From IMG/VR virus record IMGVR_UViG_3300031857_000347, positions 1-46,552 of that record: a DNA stretch of 46,552 nucleotides. One strand, written 5' to 3'. Each line of letters opens with the position of its first letter. Position 1 is the stretch's first letter. Both the position numbers and the translations under genes were made by a program. Below the pieces are notes generated by a model that ran no database searches, was not told the origin of the DNA, and saw only the letters and a program-made list of their open reading frames with translations. The DNA comes from a virus. This document shows positions 7,201 to 46,228 of the stretch, one piece after another.

Positions 7201-9717
7201 GAACAGGGGACGGCCGTCGATCGTTTTGGGGAACATGGGCAGCAGCGTCGCTTCGACGTCGGCGCGGATCGTCTTCGGGTCGGACGCCTCGTAGCCTGTA
7301 AACATGCCCTCGCCGGCAAACTGGAGAACGTCGATCGCCTTCTGCCGGTCGATGCGTTCGGCACCGATGGACGTCAGCAACGCGTAAACGGGCTCGTTGT
7401 CGACCGTCTGCTGGGCGACCTCGCGCTCTTGCTCGTAAAGCACCTTGTACTCGCTGGACAGGCGCTCGCGCTCCTGGCGCAGGCGCAGGTCTTCGAGGCG
7501 ATTGCGGGCGACCTCACGCGCGCGAGCGACCTTCGCAAGGTACGCCTCGTATTGCGGCTGCGTCAGCCCAGTGTCGCGGGCCGACTTGAACATCTCCTGG
7601 AGCCCGATCATCTGGTCGATGCCGATCGTCTGCTCGGCGGCCACGATCAAATTGCCGTCGGCGTCAGCGCGCAAGCCCTTGGGCAGCGCCTCGCCGCTCG
7701 TCAGATCGAGGATGACCTTCTTCGGCATCTTGCGGATTTCAAGATCGCTGAACCCCGCCTCGCGCAGGATCGAGATGGCGTCGTCGGTGATCTCGGTCGG
7801 CGCAACTTTGGCGGGCTTCTTCTCGGGGACCAACTTGAGACCCTGGGCAAGCTCGTCGCGAAGCTCGAAGCTGATGTACGGCGCAGGCATATTGGTGCCG
7901 GTGTCGTCGTAGGCTTTGCGGAGCTGCGGATCGTTGGCCGGCACGTCGACATAGAACACCTTGCTGCCTTCGCCTCGGTAGTCACGGGCGTAAGCAAAGT
8001 CGGGCGACACGAAACGTGACCCGCCGTCGTACTTGCCGCTGCCCGCGCCATGGTAGAAACGCACAAAACCCTCGCGCACTGGAGGCAAAGACGCGATGTC
8101 TTGGACGCCGGCTTCGGCAGCCTGCTCCTCTTCGGCCGCAGCCTTCGCCTGCTCCGACAGATCGGTGCCCGCGTACTCCTTGGCTTCCGCCGCCGTGAGA
8201 CCTTCGCGATCCAGACGGATGTGGTCGGCCAGAGCTGCGAACGCCTCGGGCTGCACATGCACTGCCGCGTGCGCCGCAGGCGACACGACGATGTCTTCGT
8301 TGCCGGCAGCGACCTCGGCCGCCAGGGCTTCGCGCGTGACGCCGATACGCTCCAGCAGCGCGTCGCCGACGTCGGGCGCCAGCTTGTCGAGAGCTTCCGC
8401 GAGCTTGTCGGCCGGGATCGAGACCTCGGGCAAAGAACCCGTCAGCGCTTCAATGGCGGCCTGCGGGTCATTGGCGGTGATCGGCGCCTCTTGCACCTTG
8501 GCGCTGATCTCTTGGAGCGTGGCGAGGCCATCTTCGGCGTTCGCGATGTCCTGGCGATCCTTGCGGTAGCGCATGACGGCGCCCGGAGTGCTCAACACCG
8601 TGGCCGCCTGGAAGGCTTTGTACCCCGCTTCGAAGATGCGGTCGCGGATTTGGTCGGCCGATGCGCCTTCCAAACCTTCGAGCGATTTGCCGACTTCTTC
8701 GGCCGTGATCTGGATGATCTCCTGGACGGCTTCGGTTCCCGTCTGCACGCCGACGTTCTTCGCGTACTCCGTTAGGGCTTTCCCGGCGACTTGCGTCACG
8801 CCGAGGCGCTTGACCATGTCCTGTACGAACGCAGCTCGGATGCCCGAGGTGAACTGCCCGAGGCCCACACGATCGGCTGCGACTTCCACGGCGCCGATCA
8901 GGCCGCCCGCGACGACCGCGAGCGAACGCGCGTAGGTGTCGCTGACGCCAGCTTCGCGCAAGTCCGCGTAGGACTGCCCCATGGCAACCGTGGTGGTTTC
9001 CGCAAGGTAGCCCAGGCCCGCACCGGCCACGACGACGCCGCCAGCAACCGCGAGTGTGGGGGCCGCCACAGCGCCAGTGGCAACGGCGCCTACGCCGAGT
9101 GCCGCGCCGCCGAGGACGTTCCTGCTGGTCGTCGTCGAGAACAACTGGCCGATCTGTTCCGACGCGGAGCCAAACCAACCTGCTATACCGCCGTCGTTGT
9201 CGGCAAGGGCTCTCAGGCGCGCGTCGAGTGCGGCCAAGTCGGATTTGAAGCCCTCCGAGCCGGGGGCGACGAGGAGGTTGAAGCCCGCGCGACCCTGGTC
9301 CTGCACCACGTTGCCGCGCTGGAACGCGCGAGCTTGGCGCTCGACAAACGAAAGCTGCTCGACGCTGTCGTGGGCGATCTTGGCGTTGGTGGCAATCGCC
9401 ATCCATGCGGCGGTGTTGGGCGCGTCCTGGAGTGCAGCGTTGACGCGGCGCTCGGTAGCGACGGCTTGGAAGTTCTCGCGGTCGGAGGCCACGACTTCTT
9501 CGGGTGCGCCGACTTCGGCGGCGAGCTTGCGGTCGGAGGCGGCCTGCGACGTGCTGGTGCCCGACAGGACGCGGGCGTTGGTGGCGGCTCGCTGACGGGG
9601 TTCGGCTGCTACGCCTTCAAGCGCGCGGAGGTATTTGTCGCCGCCCGGAACGCCCCCAGGCGTCACGTTTGCAGCGTCAACACCCTCAAGCGCTTTGTCG
9701 TAGATCGAACCAGCCAT
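4216..9717 (-). CDS. Giant internal virion protein with polyvalent-protein domains (1833 aa)
   Basis: By size and position this is the T7 gp16 counterpart: the largest ejected core protein, third after the 178- and 742-residue internal proteins. Residues about 200-255 are a long Ala/Gly/Val hydrophobic stretch that could insert in a membrane. Around 549-630 there is a segment resembling the ADP-ribosyltransferase fold of phage polyvalent proteins (FVRFYHGAGSGKYDGGSRFV, then DFAYARDYRG, then VFYVDVP). A charged helical middle follows (about 720-1100). A second hydrophobic segment (LVLMTLIPSIL) lies near residue 1690. I saw no lytic transglycosylase motif, unlike T7 gp16. It probably helps carry DNA across the envelope; the ART activity is untested. 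Confidence 0.75.
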   Translation of the reverse strand: MAGSIYDKALEGVDAANVTPGGVPGGDKYLRALEGVAAEPRQRAATNARVLSGTSTSQAASDRKLAAEVGAPEEVVASDRENFQAVATERRVNAALQDAPNTAAWMAIATNAKIAHDSVEQLSFVERQARAFQRGNVVQDQGRAGFNLLVAPGSEGFKSDLAALDARLRALADNDGGIAGWFGSASEQIGQLFSTTTSRNVLGGAALGVGAVATGAVAAPTLAVAGGVVVAGAGLGYLAETTTVAMGQSYADLREAGVSDTYARSLAVVAGGLIGAVEVAADRVGLGQFTSGIRAAFVQDMVKRLGVTQVAGKALTEYAKNVGVQTGTEAVQEIIQITAEEVGKSLEGLEGASADQIRDRIFEAGYKAFQAATVLSTPGAVMRYRKDRQDIANAEDGLATLQEISAKVQEAPITANDPQAAIEALTGSLPEVSIPADKLAEALDKLAPDVGDALLERIGVTREALAAEVAAGNEDIVVSPAAHAAVHVQPEAFAALADHIRLDREGLTAAEAKEYAGTDLSEQAKAAAEEEQAAEAGVQDIASLPPVREGFVRFYHGAGSGKYDGGSRFVSPDFAYARDYRGEGSKVFYVDVPANDPQLRKAYDDTGTNMPAPYISFELRDELAQGLKLVPEKKPAKVAPTEITDDAISILREAGFSDLEIRKMPKKVILDLTSGEALPKGLRADADGNLIVAAEQTIGIDQMIGLQEMFKSARDTGLTQPQYEAYLAKVARAREVARNRLEDLRLRQERERLSSEYKVLYEQEREVAQQTVDNEPVYALLTSIGAERIDRQKAIDVLQFAGEGMFTGYEASDPKTIRADVEATLLPMFPKTIDGRPLFTPKGKETGLDPHILAARFGFDDALSMFQALQSAEDRTQRIQTLADRRMAEAYPDLLSSKRDVDLALEAIHTDQQGKLMMDDLNRMLIARKQGKLKHAFVKKAAQDALETKRVSEIKPATFFGAFKRKAAEVGRAVRKGDRALAVKKAFEKVVAFEMARASYKVRNEVAQDQKFLRKFLASDKGRAMADNSEAADYFDAAKWLMREYGFTEDVGQIKEDRAAEIVEQNFPEIVARLQQPRGSKAGFPVETTDMRLDDWREAAVVIRQLVGFGRDAASFSEADGVRQLSQVKAELEAVARSAQDVARTDETRNDANAPALKKAGALAANVIVPSNSLVEFTMRLLDNGKAAGKWFNATVRNVMSAEFAANRIREKFVQPHIEKLRDVLPQRPGPLGLKFDDTRSTTPGGVGVPLSVEQRIMLSLNAASPDGMKRLTEGMKLGRSYKDGSWTEANIMAEVNQLTPKQAEWVQGMLDIFNVHMWPLVEAQYRRETGKSPNKVQGQQITLNNGAVIQGGYFPLLYDRSQISYNDEAFQPQDPLSSGVGGGSRAQYDAVFSGMTKARTSFVAPLALDLSRATLVLDAHIHYITHRQAIRDMSKLFRNPELAGLISDKAGPDRMEGLKAWMRDLAANGDAGRALQIQDGVNPIVEFARQGVLISAMTYSVATFLAQPLGITSSVNQLSRTDTGKRQVAKGSLYYGRGLMDLLATGRKGMKWANDVSLVLRDRLSSVDAAIGELQRELENKASPRAKLAVAGFRALAYFQLYTVDYPTWFGAYRKAQEEGRTPQDAAVYADSILRTSQGSGALSAQSSFQRARDPWSRAVNGVMTYPTVYFNAMGEAVADLKRQKGIKGKLWTMGSTLVLMTLIPSILDTLRGNAVPEDEEDADALFWLRRVFGTQLQAFGVFGQIAGGLVQGYKPSGTLVASYAAESQKLVGALAKIWEEEELTAETARKLVKPAFVLGRIPGGSQADRFLEALEKDSENPLDYILGPPPK

Positions 9718-28037: not shown

Positions 28038-28502
28038 ATGTCGCACGAAAATCATAGCCTCGCAGGTGTCGGCCAGCGCTCTTATGTCATCTTCGCAATC
28101 GATGCCGCATTTATCAATTCGGCACGCGAAGCCGACCTACTGCAAAGCATTCGCACTAAACCCGTGCAAGGGGGATACACCATGGAAAGCACGGGCGAAA
28201 CTGTTGTCGAGGCCAGCTACATCATTGCAGCAGAGGACTGGACTAAAGTCTTAGCCTCCGGCCTCGTCGATAATCAGGAAAGCATCTTGGTCCTTGGGCC
28301 GAAGGCTTCCCGCGATGCGCACCGCCCTGCCGTTCTGCATTTCTTGCCGAAGACGTGGGATGTTATGACGCAAGCATTGCCCGTGTTCCTGGGTTACTTC
28401 GTCGATTGCGAAGAACACGTCGCAAAGGCGCAATCGGGCTGGACAGAAGACAACGGCGTGTTCTACGCGTGCTTTCACGATCCCGAAGACGCCCAAGAAT
28501 AG
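28038..28502 (+). CDS. Unknown protein (154 aa)
   Basis: The soluble protein begins MSHENHSLAGVGQRSYVIFA and contains GGYTMESTGETVVEASYIIA (about residues 45-65), ESILVLGPKASRDAHRPAVL (about 80-100) and a C-terminal GYFVDCEEHVAKAQSGWTED. It looks like a compact alpha/beta protein with the feel of phage early proteins that bind host factors, but no motif was recognised. CGGAGA precedes the ATG by 10 bases. A hairpin follows the gene. Confidence 0.65.
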   Translation: MSHENHSLAGVGQRSYVIFAIDAAFINSAREADLLQSIRTKPVQGGYTMESTGETVVEASYIIAAEDWTKVLASGLVDNQESILVLGPKASRDAHRPAVLHFLPKTWDVMTQALPVFLGYFVDCEEHVAKAQSGWTEDNGVFYACFHDPEDAQE

Positions 28503-29467: not shown

Positions 29468-29662
29468 ATGGGTAAAACTTACAAATACGATCCCGAGAGC
29501 GAATTGAGCCCGGTTGATGTCGAAATGCGCAAGCAAGAGGCAAGACGCCCGCGAGATCGATGGGACATCGAATACGAGGAACACGTGATGACGCAAACGC
29601 GCGACCATCGCGCAAGCTTGCCCGTGACACGTTACAGAACCCGTCCCCCCGTTCGGGGATAG
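29468..29662 (+). CDS. Small charged protein, unknown (64 aa)
   Basis: The 64-residue product is highly charged (MGKTYKYDPESELSPVDVEM, then RKQEARRPRDRWDIEYEEHV) and probably disordered or helical. It is the last gene of the block that ends at the strong hairpin at 29735. GAAAAGGAC precedes the ATG. No function can be suggested. Confidence 0.55.
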   Translation: MGKTYKYDPESELSPVDVEMRKQEARRPRDRWDIEYEEHVMTQTRDHRASLPVTRYRTRPPVRG

Positions 29663-29734: not shown

Positions 29735-29760
29735 GGGGGCTCTCTATAGAGAGCACCCCC
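29735..29760 (+). terminator. Strong bidirectional terminator
   Basis: The perfect 14-bp palindrome CTCTCTATAGAGAG is flanked by GGGGG and CACCCCC, giving a stem of about 11 bp with one bulged A. AAAA lies on the left and TTTT two bases after the stem on the right. It closes the rightward block at 27548-29662 and insulates the repeat cluster that follows. Confidence 0.85.
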
Positions 29761-29767
29761 ATTTTGT

Positions 29768-29950
29768 GGTCGTGATACTTTTGAGGGAAGCTAGAACAAA
29801 TTCCTTATCACGACGGGTGCGGTCGTGATACATTTTGCATCCGATGCAGTAAACATCGTATCACGATCAATAGTCGTCGTGATACGTCGTGATACACTAG
29901 GTCGCCGTTCCTTATCACGATCGCTCTCGGTCGTGATACGGTCGTGATAC
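29768..29950. repeat. Iteron-like cluster of nine TCGTGATA repeats
   Basis: TCGTGATA occurs in plus sense at 29770, 29822, 29877, 29887, 29931 and 29942 (each followed by C, extending it to TCGTGATAC) and in minus sense (TATCACGA) ending at 29813, 29866 and 29920. The last two plus-sense copies are 11 bp apart, one helical turn. The core CGTGATAC is the half-site of the 16-bp palindrome family. The cluster lies in gene-free DNA between a terminator and a promoter, as replication origins or multi-operator switches do. Confidence 0.85.
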
Positions 29951-30008
29951 TTTGCGATCCCTGGATTGTAGAGACTGGCCTAGCTGTTTCAACTTGTTGA
30001 TGTAGTAC

Positions 30009-30037
30009 TTGACAACGCGTTTGGTATTACGTAATAC
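30009..30037 (+). promoter_or_regulatory. Early promoter with palindrome over its -10 box
   Basis: TTGACA (30009-30014), a 17-base spacer and TAATAC (30032-30037) form a strong promoter, perfect at -35. The -10 hexamer lies wholly inside the perfect palindrome at 30023-30038. The start site would be near 30044, 24 bases before the first small early gene. A protein on the palindrome would directly exclude RNA polymerase. Confidence 0.85.
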
Positions 30038-30038
30038 C
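30023..30038 (+). promoter_or_regulatory. Dispersed palindrome copy 7 (GGTATTACGTAATACC, perfect)
   Basis: One of two perfectly symmetric copies. It overlaps the early promoter -10 and lies 73 bp right of the half-site cluster, which makes it the likeliest primary operator of the family. Confidence 0.85.
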
Positions 30039-33285: not shown

Positions 33286-33314
33286 AGCCCCGGATCGCTC
33301 CGGGGCTTTTTTTT
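33286..33314 (+). terminator. Strong bidirectional terminator
   Basis: AGCCCCGGA, the loop TCGC and TCCGGGGCT form a 9-bp stem extended by AAAA/TTTT pairs, with a run of eight T on the right and A on the left. It ends the rightward early block and, on the other strand, overlaps the end of the leftward primase gene. Confidence 0.93.
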
Positions 33315-35280
33315 ATACCTTCGCCCAGCGCCACTTGGCTTTTTCGGCGTCATACATGGCGTTCGCCTTTGTGCCGGTCGTCTCGCGCAGGCGGATCAGG
33401 TAGTTGTTCTGAAGCGTTCGGCTGTCCACGTCCACTTCCTTGAGCATCGCCACGGCTTCGGCCAGGGCCTTTGTCGACCAGTCCTTGAACTTGTTCGCCC
33501 CAAGCACCTTGGCGACTGCTGCATCGAGCACCAGCACGCTCGACGCATCGAGCGCAGGACGCTTGCGCTTGTCCTTCGGAGGCGCCTCGGCCTTCTCGGT
33601 TGCCGGCACCTCGTCTGCCTTCGCGGCCGGGAACACGGCGAGCGATCCTTCGTCCTCGGCTTCGTCCTCGGCTTCGCCCTGGGCGCGCAGCTCCAGGCGC
33701 ATCGGCTTCTCCCACTCGGGCGCGTCCTTCTGTTTGGTGTTGAATAGGCTCACGCTCTTCTCTTTGCCCTTGCGATGCACTCCGAAGATCGCATCCGGTG
33801 CGCCCTGGAATTCCATGGAGCCCTTGGCGCGCGTGTCGTCGCCCTGCCCCGAGTGATGGATCGCGAGGAGTGTGGCGCCGAGCTCGGCCTGGAGCCGCTG
33901 CGTCATGGCCGTGAACTTCGACGCGTGCTCCTGGGCGTTCTCGTTGAGCCCTTGCATCGCGCGGGCGACCGTGTCCACGACGACGAGCTTGTAGCCCTCC
34001 GGGTGCATCTCCAGGGCGCCGTCGATGAACCCCTCGATCGCCTCGGCCACGAGCGGCACAGGATCGGCCAGGATGAAGCGGTCGGCTTTGCGCCCGCCCA
34101 GATGCGCCTGCTCCCACGCCTTCACGCGCTTGACGAAAGACGCGCGGCCCTCACCGAGGATGTAGAGGACCGGACCAGGGTCTTCGACGCGGAAGGCGTG
34201 CGTCTGGGGGAACGATCCGCCCGTCGCTACGGTCAACGCCCAGTCGAGCGCGATGAAGGACTTGAAGGTGCCGGGGGGACCGAAGAGGATCGCGAACGCG
34301 TCCTGCGGCAGAACGCCGGGGATAAGCCAGCGCGCAGGCGGCACATGATCGAGGGCCTCGCGGTCAACGAAGCGAAACTTGCCCGCCGTCAGCTCGCGCC
34401 CGCTCGGCAGATCGTCGCGCAGGATCGGCCGGAACATGGCCTTGATCTTCGCCTCTTTGTAGGCAGCCGTGATGTTGCCGGGCGGGCTGGTGTTGTAGGC
34501 GTACCCGTTGTCGATCTTGGTTTCGAAATGGTCGGCTTCGTCCGCACCCCAAGGCGGCTGGCAGCGCGGGTTCCAATGCTCCCACATGAGGTCGCGCGCA
34601 AGCTCCTGGGAGATGCCGTAGGACTTCAGGTGCGCCGCTGTGGCGTAGGCTATGGCGTCGCCGCCTTGCCCCTGGACGGCGACCTTGGCGTCTTCGCGAA
34701 GCCATTTGGTGGCCGCCTCGACGTTGGCCGGGAGGTCGGGCTCGATCAGCCAACTGTCGCGGTCCTGGTGCTTCTCGCGCGCCACGTTGAAGGAGCGCAG
34801 CATGTCGTCGGTGCGAAAGGTGGCGCGGCCCTCGGCCTCCCAGTCGTAGACGCCGTCGCCTGTGCGGCTCGGAGCCAGCAGCACGTAGCCATTGAGGCCA
34901 CGGATGTCGGTCTTATGCGCCACCTTGCTGACGGAGTTTGCGACGCGGTCTTCTTCGCCGATTGCATAAAAAAGATGGATACCACCTCGCGGTGTGCGCT
35001 GTCGCATTTCGGTGTTCGGCAACTGTAGGTCGCGTTTGACCTGGGCCATGTCGGAGCCAGGGTCGAAGTCTACGACGCATAGGCCAGCGCCCGAGAGGTC
35101 GCAGCCGATGTTCGCTTTCGGAAACCGAGCCCACCACTTTTCGATTTTGCCTGGGTCGGTCGTCGCGTCGAGCACCCCATTGGGTACGATGGAGCCGATC
35201 GGCTCTTTGTTGCTGTCGCACGGAAAGACGGGAAGCCCGCGCTTGGCATAAGCCAGCGCATGTTCAAGCATTGTCGCCAT
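33313..35280 (-). CDS. Primase-polymerase / RepA-type helicase fusion (655 aa)
   Basis: Residues 1 to about 190 form a bifunctional primase-polymerase domain: RGLPVFPCDSNKEP, the metal-binding VVDFDPGSD (about 68-76), GGIHLFY (about 100-106) and DIRGLNGYVLLAPS (about 124-137). Residues about 290-550 form a RecA-like ATPase with Walker A LFGPPGTFKS and Walker B LVVVDTVARAM. It should prime and unwind the phage DNA. It is the only leftward gene in the replication region, with its own promoter (35311-35339). The C-terminal 90 residues are charged. Confidence 0.88.
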   Translation of the reverse strand: MATMLEHALAYAKRGLPVFPCDSNKEPIGSIVPNGVLDATTDPGKIEKWWARFPKANIGCDLSGAGLCVVDFDPGSDMAQVKRDLQLPNTEMRQRTPRGGIHLFYAIGEEDRVANSVSKVAHKTDIRGLNGYVLLAPSRTGDGVYDWEAEGRATFRTDDMLRSFNVAREKHQDRDSWLIEPDLPANVEAATKWLREDAKVAVQGQGGDAIAYATAAHLKSYGISQELARDLMWEHWNPRCQPPWGADEADHFETKIDNGYAYNTSPPGNITAAYKEAKIKAMFRPILRDDLPSGRELTAGKFRFVDREALDHVPPARWLIPGVLPQDAFAILFGPPGTFKSFIALDWALTVATGGSFPQTHAFRVEDPGPVLYILGEGRASFVKRVKAWEQAHLGGRKADRFILADPVPLVAEAIEGFIDGALEMHPEGYKLVVVDTVARAMQGLNENAQEHASKFTAMTQRLQAELGATLLAIHHSGQGDDTRAKGSMEFQGAPDAIFGVHRKGKEKSVSLFNTKQKDAPEWEKPMRLELRAQGEAEDEAEDEGSLAVFPAAKADEVPATEKAEAPPKDKRKRPALDASSVLVLDAAVAKVLGANKFKDWSTKALAEAVAMLKEVDVDSRTLQNNYLIRLRETTGTKANAMYDAEKAKWRWAKV

Positions 35281-35880: not shown

Positions 35881-36696
35881 ATGACCAAGACCAAGACCAA
35901 AGCCAGCAAGGCGTCGAAGCCCGCGCCCAAGGCGTCGAAGCCGTCGAAGGAAACCGCCGTCGTCATTGTCGACAAGGTTGCCGAGAAGGCTGCCGCCATC
36001 ACCGAGGCCAACAAGCGCCTCGACCCCATCGCGAAGACGATCAACGTGCGCCTCGAAAAGGCGGCGAAGCTCGAAGGCGACGCGGACGATCATCGCCTCG
36101 CGGCGGCGCTCGAAATGGCGCGTGCGGCTCAAGTGTGCGAAGCGGCTGGCATCAAGTTCAAGGACTGGGCCATCGAGCATATCAAAAACCAATCGTTCGA
36201 GAACGTGCGCAAGCTGCTGGCGGTCGGCAAGGCTGACGAACCGGCCAAGGCCCTCGCCGATCTGCGCGCTGGCGCCAAGAAGGCCCAGGCCAAGCACCGC
36301 GAGAAGGTGAAGGCGAAGGTCCAGGCGGCCAACGTGCCGAAGCTCGAAGCGCCCAAGCCTATCGACGTCGTCGTGGGGCTGAAACCCGAGGACCAGATCG
36401 CCCTGGTCAAGAAGGTCTCGAAAGACCTGGGTATGGCCGTCGTGTCCGAAAGCGACGCTAAGGCGCTCGATCAATTCCGCAAGACGCCCCCGGCGCAGGC
36501 GAAGACCGCAACCGTGTCGCTGCCGCTGGGCTACGACGCGGTCATCGCTGGCATCGGCGACCTCAAGCAGTCGGAGAAGGTCAAGCTCCTTCGCTGGCTG
36601 GCCGAGGTCCTGGGCTACGACGTGACGGCCAAGGCGGACGCCAACGAAATGCCCGCGATCCCCGACTTCCTCGACATCAAGAAGAAAGCGGCATAG
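35881..36696 (+). CDS. Lys/Ala-rich protein, possibly nucleic-acid binding (271 aa)
   Basis: The N-terminal 30 residues are lysine, serine and proline-rich (TKTKASKASKPAPKASKPSK), like a flexible basic tail. A helical region follows with RLAAALEMARAAQVCEAAGI and the segment KFKDWAIEHIKNQSFENVRK, which resembles the winged or HTH-like element in phage and plasmid proteins that tests replication sites. The C-terminal part has YDAVIAGIGDLKQSEKVKLL and LGYDVTAK. With its own promoter and early place it is one candidate for the protein that reads the palindromes. The family is not certain. Confidence 0.6.
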   Translation: MTKTKTKASKASKPAPKASKPSKETAVVIVDKVAEKAAAITEANKRLDPIAKTINVRLEKAAKLEGDADDHRLAAALEMARAAQVCEAAGIKFKDWAIEHIKNQSFENVRKLLAVGKADEPAKALADLRAGAKKAQAKHREKVKAKVQAANVPKLEAPKPIDVVVGLKPEDQIALVKKVSKDLGMAVVSESDAKALDQFRKTPPAQAKTATVSLPLGYDAVIAGIGDLKQSEKVKLLRWLAEVLGYDVTAKADANEMPAIPDFLDIKKKAA

Positions 36697-39063: not shown

Positions 39064-40272
39064 ATGCCCGAACTACCCCAGGCCCACAGCCCGCTCGGTG
39101 CGTCGAGCGCGGAACGATGGATGGCGTGCCCCGCGAGCGTGAGCTTGTCGGCTGGGCACCAGGACGAAGAGAGCGATCACGCTGCCCTCGGTACGGCGGC
39201 GCACACGCTGGCTGCCTACTGCTTGACAAAGGACGTCGAGCCATGGCGCCTGATCGGTCAGTACGTCGCCGAAGACAAGATCGACGGCGCCGAAGACAAG
39301 ATCGACGGCGCCGAAGGCAAGCACCTCATCGACAAGGAGATGGCCGACGCCGTGTCCGAGTACGTGGCATTTATCGGTGCGGAGTTTCCCGACCGCAACC
39401 AGGGCAACTCCTGGGTTGAGCGCAAGTTCCACTGCCCATCGATCCACAAGTATTTCTACGGGACGTCGGACTTCACGGCGATCGTCGGCCGCAAGGCCAC
39501 CGTCGTCGACTACAAGCACGGCGCCGGCATCGTCGTGGACGCGGTCGAAAACCCGCAACTCATGTACTACGCGGCGGGCGTCCTCGAAGACCTGAACGCC
39601 TGGGATAGCGTTGACGAGATCGAACTTGTGATAGTGCAGCCTCGGGCCTTCCACTACGACGGCCCGATCCGTAGCTGGACGATCAGCACGGCCGAGCTGG
39701 TGGCGTGGCTCGAAGACAAGCTGGTGCCGGCAATGGATCGCGCCCTGGTATCACGTGATACCAAGTCCGGGGAACACTGCCGCTTCTGCCCCGCGCGCTT
39801 CGGCGCCTGTCCGCAGATCGTGTCCGACGTGGACGAAATGGAGGAGCTGATGAAGACGATCGGTAAAGACGGCGGGGGCGCACCGAAGCTCACGGGCGAA
39901 CAGCTCGCGCGCTTTCTCGACCTCGGCGAGGTGTTCAAGATAGTCCGCACTGCGGCGCTCAAGACGGCCACGGTTCGCGTCCAGAATGGGCACAAGGTCC
40001 CCGGCTGGAAGCTGTCGAAGGCGCGGTCGAACCGCGAGTTCAAAGAAGGTGCGGAGGCCGCCGCCAAGAAGGAGTTCGGCGATGACGCATATTCGCAGCC
40101 GAAGCTGAAGTCTCCCGCCGAGTTCGACAAGCTGCCGAAGGGCAAAGACTTCACGGCGCGCTGGGCCTTCAAGCCTGACGCCGGGGAGACTTTGGTCCCT
40201 GAAGACGACGCACGCCCGGCCGTAAACAAAGACGTGAAGTCGATGTTCAAGCCGATCAAGAAGTCCAAGTAA
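39064..40272 (+). CDS. DUF2800 nuclease (PD-(D/E)XK, Cas4/RecB-like), 402 aa
   Basis: The N-terminus SPLGASSAERWMACPASVSL is the hallmark of the phage DUF2800 family. The nuclease core is GTSDFTAIVG and VVDYKHGAGIVV (residues about 137-161), with the D and D-x-K of the PD-(D/E)XK fold. A cysteine group (EHCRFCPARFGACP, about 238-251) fits an iron-sulphur cluster as in Cas4/AddB exonucleases. It should process DNA ends for recombination with the DUF2815 protein. A 21-bp tandem repeat encodes EDKIDGA twice near residue 70. A palindrome copy lies at 39747. Confidence 0.85.
   Translation: MPELPQAHSPLGASSAERWMACPASVSLSAGHQDEESDHAALGTAAHTLAAYCLTKDVEPWRLIGQYVAEDKIDGAEDKIDGAEGKHLIDKEMADAVSEYVAFIGAEFPDRNQGNSWVERKFHCPSIHKYFYGTSDFTAIVGRKATVVDYKHGAGIVVDAVENPQLMYYAAGVLEDLNAWDSVDEIELVIVQPRAFHYDGPIRSWTISTAELVAWLEDKLVPAMDRALVSRDTKSGEHCRFCPARFGACPQIVSDVDEMEELMKTIGKDGGGAPKLTGEQLARFLDLGEVFKIVRTAALKTATVRVQNGHKVPGWKLSKARSNREFKEGAEAAAKKEFGDDAYSQPKLKSPAEFDKLPKGKDFTARWAFKPDAGETLVPEDDARPAVNKDVKSMFKPIKKSK
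39268..39309 (+). repeat. 21-bp tandem repeat inside the nuclease gene
   Basis: Two identical 21-bp units (39268-39288 and 39289-39309), followed by a 12-base partial third copy with one change. The frame is kept and adds EDKIDGA to a surface-like loop. It looks like a recent duplication. Confidence 0.85.
39747..39762 (+). promoter_or_regulatory. Dispersed palindrome copy 11 (GGTATCACGTGATACC, perfect, inside a gene)
   Basis: This perfectly symmetric copy lies inside the DUF2800 gene (codons for ALVSRDTKS), not at a gene boundary. Perfect symmetry in coding DNA suggests it is kept as a binding site, as internal stoperators are. Confidence 0.72.
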
Positions 40273-44599: not shown

Positions 44600-46228
44600 A
44601 TGAACAGCAACGCCCCCTTGTCCGCCGAGCGCATCCAGGAAATCGTGGAGGCGGTCGATCTGCACGGCACCAAGAAGGCTGCGGCCGACGCCTTGGGCAT
44701 CTCTCGGGACGCGGTGATCCGCGCCGTGCGCAAGGCAGAGGAGAACGCCACGGGTCGGGCCAAGGCGCCAGAGCGCGTGGACTTCGGGCTGCCGGCAAAG
44801 GGCAAGATCGCCCGCTACATCTTCACCTGCGCCCAGTCCAACACCAAGCTACACGACTGGACGTGGCGCAATCTCGTAGCCCTGGCCGAACACTACGGCG
44901 CCCGCATCCACGTCTCGCGCTTCACCTACAAGAAGGAAGCCTACGGGTCGAAGGCGGTCAAGCCCGGCAAGGGCGCAACGGCTGCCGACAAGGCGGACCT
45001 ATGGTACGACAAGCGGATCGAGCCCTTCATCTCCGACGAAGGCGCCAACGTGGCGCCGGGCCTCGTATGGTGCGGCGAGATGAACATCCTGCCCACGGCC
45101 ATCCGTCCGCTCTCGGGGATGGAGAGTTACACCGGCCGCAAGTCGGGCATCTTCCCCCACGCCAAGATCGCCATGGAGAGCATCGCTTCGCACAAGTCGG
45201 AGCCGACGAAGTTCAACTACACGACTGGCGCCGTGACGCTGCGCAACTACATCGCCAAGAAGGCGGGGCTCAAGGCCGAGTTCCACCACGGCTACGGCGG
45301 GCTCTTGGTCGAAGTCGACAGCGAGGGCTCCTGGTGGTGCCGCCAGTTGAACGCCGACAGCGAAGGCACAATCTATGACCTGGACGTGCGGGCGAGGCGC
45401 GGCCACGTCACGACAGGCCACCGGGTCGAGGCTGTGAACTGGGGAGACATCCACGTATCGGGCGAAGAGACGCCGAGCCTGACCGCTTGCTTCGGCAAGG
45501 ACGGCATCCTCGACACGCTGCGGCCAAGGTTCCAATTCCACCACGACGTATTCGACTTCCGCTTCAGCAACCACCACGATCGCAAGAACCCGCATCGCCG
45601 CTTCGAGCTTCATCTGTCGGGCAAGGACAGCGGGGTCGACGAACTCAAGAACGTGGCCCGATTTATCATGCACGATAGCTGGCGTGACTTCTGCAAGACC
45701 GTGGTCGTCGACAGCAACCACGACAACGCCATGACGCGCTGGCTGCGCGAGGCCGACTATCGCGAGGACCCCAAGAACGCGCTGCTGTTCCTGGCCGCCC
45801 AGCTTGAGGTCTATCAGGCCATCGCTGCGGGCGATAAGAAGTTCCATCTGGTGTCCTGGGCCGTCAACCGCATGGCGCCCGACTACGCCGCCACTCGTGG
45901 CAGAACCGTAAAGTTCCTCCATCAGGACGAGAGCTTCGTCATCTGCCCCGATGCCAACGGCGGCATCGAGTGCGGTATGCACGGGCACCAAGGACCCAAC
46001 GGTGCCAAGGGATCGGCCGCCGCGTTCTCTCGGATGGGCCGCAAGAGCAACATAGGCCATTCGCATAGCGCCTGCATCCACGATGGCACCTACGTCGCTG
46101 GCGTGACCGGGGCACTAGACCAGGGCTACAACGCCGGCCCGTCGTCGTGGTCGCATAGCCACGTGGTCACGTATGCCAACGGAAAACGCGCGATCCTGAC
46201 AGTGTGGGACGGCAAATGGAGGGCTTGA
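44600..46228 (+). CDS. HTH plus metallophosphoesterase-like protein (542 aa)
   Basis: The N-terminal part (residues about 8-45) has an HTH pattern: IQEIVEAVDLHGTKKAAADA, then LGISRDAVIRAVRKA. The rest resembles calcineurin-like phosphoesterases: VVVDSNHDNAM (like the GNHD motif, about 370) and, near the end, GHSHSACIH (like G-H-x-H, about 487-495). Some phages place similar large proteins among the replication genes; T5 A1 is one distant comparison. It may bind and cut or dephosphorylate nucleic acid. The acetyltransferase ATG (46216) overlaps its end by 13 bp. Confidence 0.6.
   Translation: MNSNAPLSAERIQEIVEAVDLHGTKKAAADALGISRDAVIRAVRKAEENATGRAKAPERVDFGLPAKGKIARYIFTCAQSNTKLHDWTWRNLVALAEHYGARIHVSRFTYKKEAYGSKAVKPGKGATAADKADLWYDKRIEPFISDEGANVAPGLVWCGEMNILPTAIRPLSGMESYTGRKSGIFPHAKIAMESIASHKSEPTKFNYTTGAVTLRNYIAKKAGLKAEFHHGYGGLLVEVDSEGSWWCRQLNADSEGTIYDLDVRARRGHVTTGHRVEAVNWGDIHVSGEETPSLTACFGKDGILDTLRPRFQFHHDVFDFRFSNHHDRKNPHRRFELHLSGKDSGVDELKNVARFIMHDSWRDFCKTVVVDSNHDNAMTRWLREADYREDPKNALLFLAAQLEVYQAIAAGDKKFHLVSWAVNRMAPDYAATRGRTVKFLHQDESFVICPDANGGIECGMHGHQGPNGAKGSAAAFSRMGRKSNIGHSHSACIHDGTYVAGVTGALDQGYNAGPSSWSHSHVVTYANGKRAILTVWDGKWRA

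Follow-up and report, generated by a model that had tools for sequence, protein, structure and literature searches.

The region from 29735 to 29950 of the phage genome analysed here is probably its replication origin, made up of an iteron array, to which an initiator protein would bind, and an adjoining hairpin. The window, that is the whole stretch of 46,552 nucleotides, is a complete, circularly assembled genome with a 126-bp end overlap and 62% GC, and its structural genes are podovirus-like, with an epsilon15-like portal and a T7 gp14-like protein. The decisive lead to this putative origin is the comparison with other phages. No close relative was found among cultured phages, and a DNA similarity search of phage and plasmid collections with the array region gave no match. 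A complete relative, G001 (IMG/VR contig 3300042292_000587; 47961 bp, with a 30-bp end repeat), shares about 83–96% amino-acid identity with the window across most replication proteins. The gene arms diverge from the array region and meet near 0.69 kb, the exception being the helicase gene. One of the early proteins (28038–28502, plus strand) has a weak match, below cut-off (E=1.9e-4), to the S-adenosylmethionine lyase family PF23780, reminiscent of T3-like anti-restriction.

The sequence-only reading had described nine repeats, six plus and three minus, within 183 bp of gene-free DNA. Nine exact matches are indeed present (Table 1), far above chance: in dinucleotide shuffles the expectation for TCGTGATA in the whole window is a mean of 0.64 and a maximum of 3. 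The largest 8-mer cluster within 183 bp holds 9 copies in the genome compared with 2–4 in 40 Markov-1 simulated genomes, and no other 8-mer, in the genome or in the simulations, is as clustered. A period of 53–54 bp, unremarked in that reading, relates 29770/29823/29877/29931 and 29806/29859/29913, such that the full unit is an inverted pair, TATCACGA-N9-10-TCGTGATA. Two units carry an extra direct copy one helix turn on (10–11 bp); the 11-bp spacing noted previously is found for 29931/29942, with 10 bp for 29877/29887. The sites stand at helical spacing, which is a feature of iteron-type origins. Only short ORFs without support occur in the 183-bp stretch, whose GC content ranks in the bottom 1.4% of the genome and which, as had also been proposed, is bounded by a hairpin or terminator on the left and a palindrome-overlapping promoter on the right.

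Table 1. Positions of the array, its flanking elements and related features in the window
Feature	Position	Strand	Remarks
Iteron array, nine RTCGTGATAC sites	29770-29950	both	~53.5-bp period
Exact TCGTGATA sites	29770, 29823, 29877, 29887, 29931, 29942	+	
Exact TCGTGATA sites	29806, 29859, 29913	-	
Single further TCGTGATA copy in whole window	42364	-	outside array
GC-rich hairpin GGGGGCTCTC-TATA-GAGAGCACCCCC	29735-29760		adjoins array, left side
Block identical in G001	29942-29982		41 bp; spans last iteron and -10 region of putative minus-strand promoter
Possible minus-strand promoter TTGAAA-16-TACAAT	29965-29992	-	points through array toward hairpin/terminator
Early promoter TTGACA-17-TAATAC	30009-30038	+	overlaps palindrome GGTATTACGTAATACC (30023-30038)
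Small basic ORF, 64 aa	29468-29662	+	89% in G001; ends just before hairpin
Candidate initiator, Prim-Pol + RepA-type helicase	33313-35280	-	92% identical in G001
Twelve palindromes GGKATYACGTRATMCC, 16 bp each	685, 4176, 12944, 20881, 26899, 27200, 30023, 33262, 35364, 36809, 39747, 42133		

All nine TCGTGAT cores are found at corresponding places in G001, with 63/63 bases identical, compared with 85/118 bases kept between the cores (Fisher p=1e-7). Copies that are unable to pair into hairpins are conserved as well as those that pair, and for this reason the array copies look like protein-binding sites in double-stranded DNA rather than hairpins. The same observation bears on the idea of a short leftward RNA, running from ~29.96 to ~29.74 kb, in which the repeats would act as a primer or as a protein or RNA sponge. 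The -10 element of the possible minus-strand promoter is kept in G001 within the 41-bp identical block (the -35 there is TGGAAA), a terminator lies at the far end, and strong RNA folding is predicted for the region (z -7.5), all of which would suit such a transcript. The occurrence of sites in both orientations and the equal conservation of unpaired copies nevertheless favour binding to double-stranded DNA; matches like TTGAAA-16-TACAAT are expected by chance 2.8 times per 5 kb, and Rfam gave no match. We regard the RNA explanation as highly improbable.

Control of transcription, in which a phage regulator bound to the nine sites would turn on or off the 30.01-kb early promoter, a leftward promoter at 29.97 kb or both, we consider unlikely. 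The array lies directly upstream of the early promoter, of which TTGACA and the spacing are kept in G001, the conserved minus-strand promoter-like site faces into the array, and the sites are spaced by helix turns. On the other hand, no HTH_3 regulator was found in the phage, this promoter seems to have its operator already in the palindrome at 30023, and an array of nine sites that extends over 180 bp and has a hairpin on one side is a better match to the arrays that lie behind replication genes in other phages.

The hairpin is a candidate priming or unwinding structure and/or bidirectional terminator. Hairpins of the GC-rich type with an A/T apex occur at two places only in the window, and one of these, at 29739–29754, abuts the array. 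Its stem is kept in G001 with altered sequence (GGGGTCTCTACAGAGTAGAGAACCCC), and the TATA apex is absent there. The 64-aa ORF that precedes it has no family match. No DnaA boxes were seen in or near the array, the one weak match being at 29469, and scans for IHF and CtrA sites gave no convincing sites.

The protein that most likely acts as initiator, through its C-terminal region, is the Prim-Pol-helicase itself; the alternative is a separate small phage protein. It comprises a Prim-Pol domain (residues 8–150), an AAA_25 helicase domain (307–480) and a C-terminal region of ~90 residues, with Pfam matches to PF09250 (1.7e-28) and PF13481 (1.3e-37). A PDB profile search with five homologues gave RSF1010 RepA (1g8y) as the best match (E=1.1e-11) and nothing else convincing, and a search of GTDB genomes for the helicase found no relative. 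The C-terminal region is predicted, with low confidence, to be helical. AlphaFold models, at pLDDT 42 for the complete helicase and pLDDT 60 for this region, were too poor to use and had no match in the PDB; a winged helix had been expected in the C-terminal region, but is not claimed because the model is of low confidence and without a PDB match. Directly behind the helicase gene there is a short gap with a terminator and no array. The phage encodes a replisome of its own, consisting of the Prim-Pol/AAA_25 helicase, a DNA polymerase A, a Gp2.5-like SSB, a SNF2 helicase, a DUF2800 exonuclease and a RusA-like resolvase. Adjoining the resolvase is a gene (44600–46228, plus strand) for a T5 A1-like DNA transfer protein that shares 53% identity with proteins of Rhodobacter phages.

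Distant homologues of the Prim-Pol/RepA-type protein define a set of 17 loci for comparison, in which the 250 bp following the gene were examined for at least five copies of one 7-mer. Arrays are present behind the gene in 10/17 loci compared with 1/458 control windows from the same loci (p=1.4e-15), the ten including L090, whose array lies in annotated coding sequence, and both Rhizobium 16-3 and RHph_X2_25, which are related to each other; in the other seven the 250 bp contain no array. GC-rich hairpins that have an A/T apex likewise occur in 10/17 loci compared with 7/293 control windows (p=1.7e-10), given an apex list drawn up after examples had been seen and a search for L091 that started at the next intergenic gap. 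Neither element is present in L087, L088, L095 and L097. In most loci an array of mixed orientation, built from differing 7–8-mers, occupies the non-coding DNA that follows the gene: GGTTCAC (eight copies) in Alteromonas PB15, CGGTACA (eight) in 1N2-2, TGGGACA (eight) in MW202867, GCGTGACA (13–16) in Rhizobium 16-3 and RHph_X2_25, GCGGAGA (12) in RHph_N65, CTACAAA (10) in Roseobacter CRP-811, GGGGACA (five) in CGphi29 and GTCAAAA (five) in L080. The GCGTGACA iteron is one base from CGTGATA in the core that it shares with the present array. No experimentally proven origin was found in the literature for any of the comparison arrays.

Array and hairpin together form a shared layout that is also present in the window, though displaced, and on this ground we read 29735–29950 as the origin. 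An origin with iterons had been the first alternative in the sequence-only reading, and it is supported by the conservation in G001 and by the arrays and hairpins behind homologous genes elsewhere; cumulative GC skew, the check named there, has no clear minimum in either genome and is uninformative. Some points count against an origin. The array lies 3.4 kb from the helicase gene, unlike those of the comparison loci, the G001 hairpin lacks the TATA apex, and there is neither a GC-skew signal nor a DnaA box at the array. In the mechanism that we envisage, the initiator would bind the nine iterons, each of ~10 bp and placed at whole helix turns, with the DNA wrapped or bent, and would load the Prim-Pol/RepA-type helicase. 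The initiator may be that same protein, acting through its C-terminal region. The helicase would then open the adjacent hairpin and the AT-richer DNA, and would make the first primers, to be extended by the family A polymerase that the phage encodes, with forks perhaps leaving in both directions.

Several known systems share parts of this arrangement. The lambda ori, read by the O protein, is also an iteron origin in a phage, with its iterons inside the O gene and a different initiator that recruits host DnaB. Iterons lie in both orientations in P4 ori1, where, as proposed for the candidate here, they are read by a primase-helicase; P4 alpha, however, joins a Toprim primase to an SF3 helicase, whereas the present protein joins Prim-Pol to a RepA-type AAA_25 helicase and has no confirmed winged helix. 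RSF1010, with 20-bp direct iterons, resembles the window phage in its RepA-type helicase, its iterons and a stem-loop near the array, but its oriV uses three separate proteins (RepC iterons, RepA helicase, RepB' primase and ssi stem-loops), and no RepC homologue was identified in the window phage. Rhizobium 16-3 and RHph_X2_25 have many iterons of mixed orientation, an A/T-apex hairpin and a homologous Prim-Pol/RepA-type protein, and differ in that the putative origin array is directly behind the DNA primase/polymerase gene rather than 3.4 kb away beside the early promoter. It has been described that the alpha protein of P4 has a winged helix and reads repeats, that RSF1010 combines iterons, RepA helicase and primer-site stem-loops, that in the minimal replicon of pRN1, with its Prim-Pol-helicase protein, the stem-loop origin behind the gene still works when displaced, and that for phage BIP-1 the origin had earlier been proposed to be a stem-loop that follows the replication gene (PMC4234260). 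The last two share with the window phage a Prim-Pol-helicase replication protein and a stem-loop, but the stem-loop is long and without iterons, and the helicase is of the SF3 type (PMC4234260). The displaced origin of pRN1, the BIP-1 proposal and the RSF1010 combination are further reasons to read 29735–29950 as an origin.

There is perhaps an even chance that an undescribed class of origin, consisting of mixed-orientation iterons and a GC-rich A/T-apex hairpin, is common to phages in which Prim-Pol and a RepA-type helicase are fused, and that in the present genome this origin has become separated from the gene of its initiator and now forms part of the early promoter region. No description of such a class was found in the open-access literature. 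Phage origins have rarely been mapped outside a few models, and if one type of helicase goes with a recognisable sequence design, origins become predictable in many uncultured phages. The way in which a fused primase-helicase locates the place to start could also be tested, and naturally matched protein tails and iterons would be at hand for specificity swaps.

The twelve palindromes form a separate system. Scattered all around the genome, they occupy gene junctions, start or stop codons, a terminator and the interior of two genes, and follow the rule GGNATNACGTNATNCC with one-base exceptions. All twelve are found at homologous places in G001, with 95% site identity compared with ~57% just upstream. 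They resemble dispersed operators/stoperators or parS-like sites, and match the bacterial parS consensus in 12 of 16 positions. The core of the array does equal one arm of the palindrome at 39747, as the sequence-only reading had it, yet only 4/24 palindrome halves in the window read CGTGATAC, and the further suggestion that one protein reads both cluster and palindromes is not supported. In the palindromes CGT is preceded by A in 24/24 sites, and they end in CC; the cluster, with the rule RTCGTGAT, has T in 18/18, while its base at the outermost palindrome position is C in only 1/18, and the spacing of half-sites differs as well. Since the two rules differ, the CGTGATAC common to the array and some palindrome halves is best put down to chance or to a remote relationship.

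For these reasons we give very little weight to the idea that the array serves in partition (as a centromere) or silencing and is bound by the same protein as the palindromes. The shared 8-mer would favour it, and so would the parS sites of mycobacteriophages, some of which consist of direct repeats that follow repA (PMC7157519); the binding rules and half-site spacing speak against it, and searches of the phage for ParA, ParB, an integrase and HTH_3 found none. In a more distant relative, L068 (G005), with roughly 50–65% amino-acid identity for most shared proteins, a palindrome is kept at 9330–9345, at the convergent end of the endolysin gene, and is the only one in that 11-kb fragment. A lysine/alanine-rich conserved protein of 271 residues (35881–36696, plus strand; 86% in G001), with no family match, is a candidate DNA-binding protein for the palindromes.
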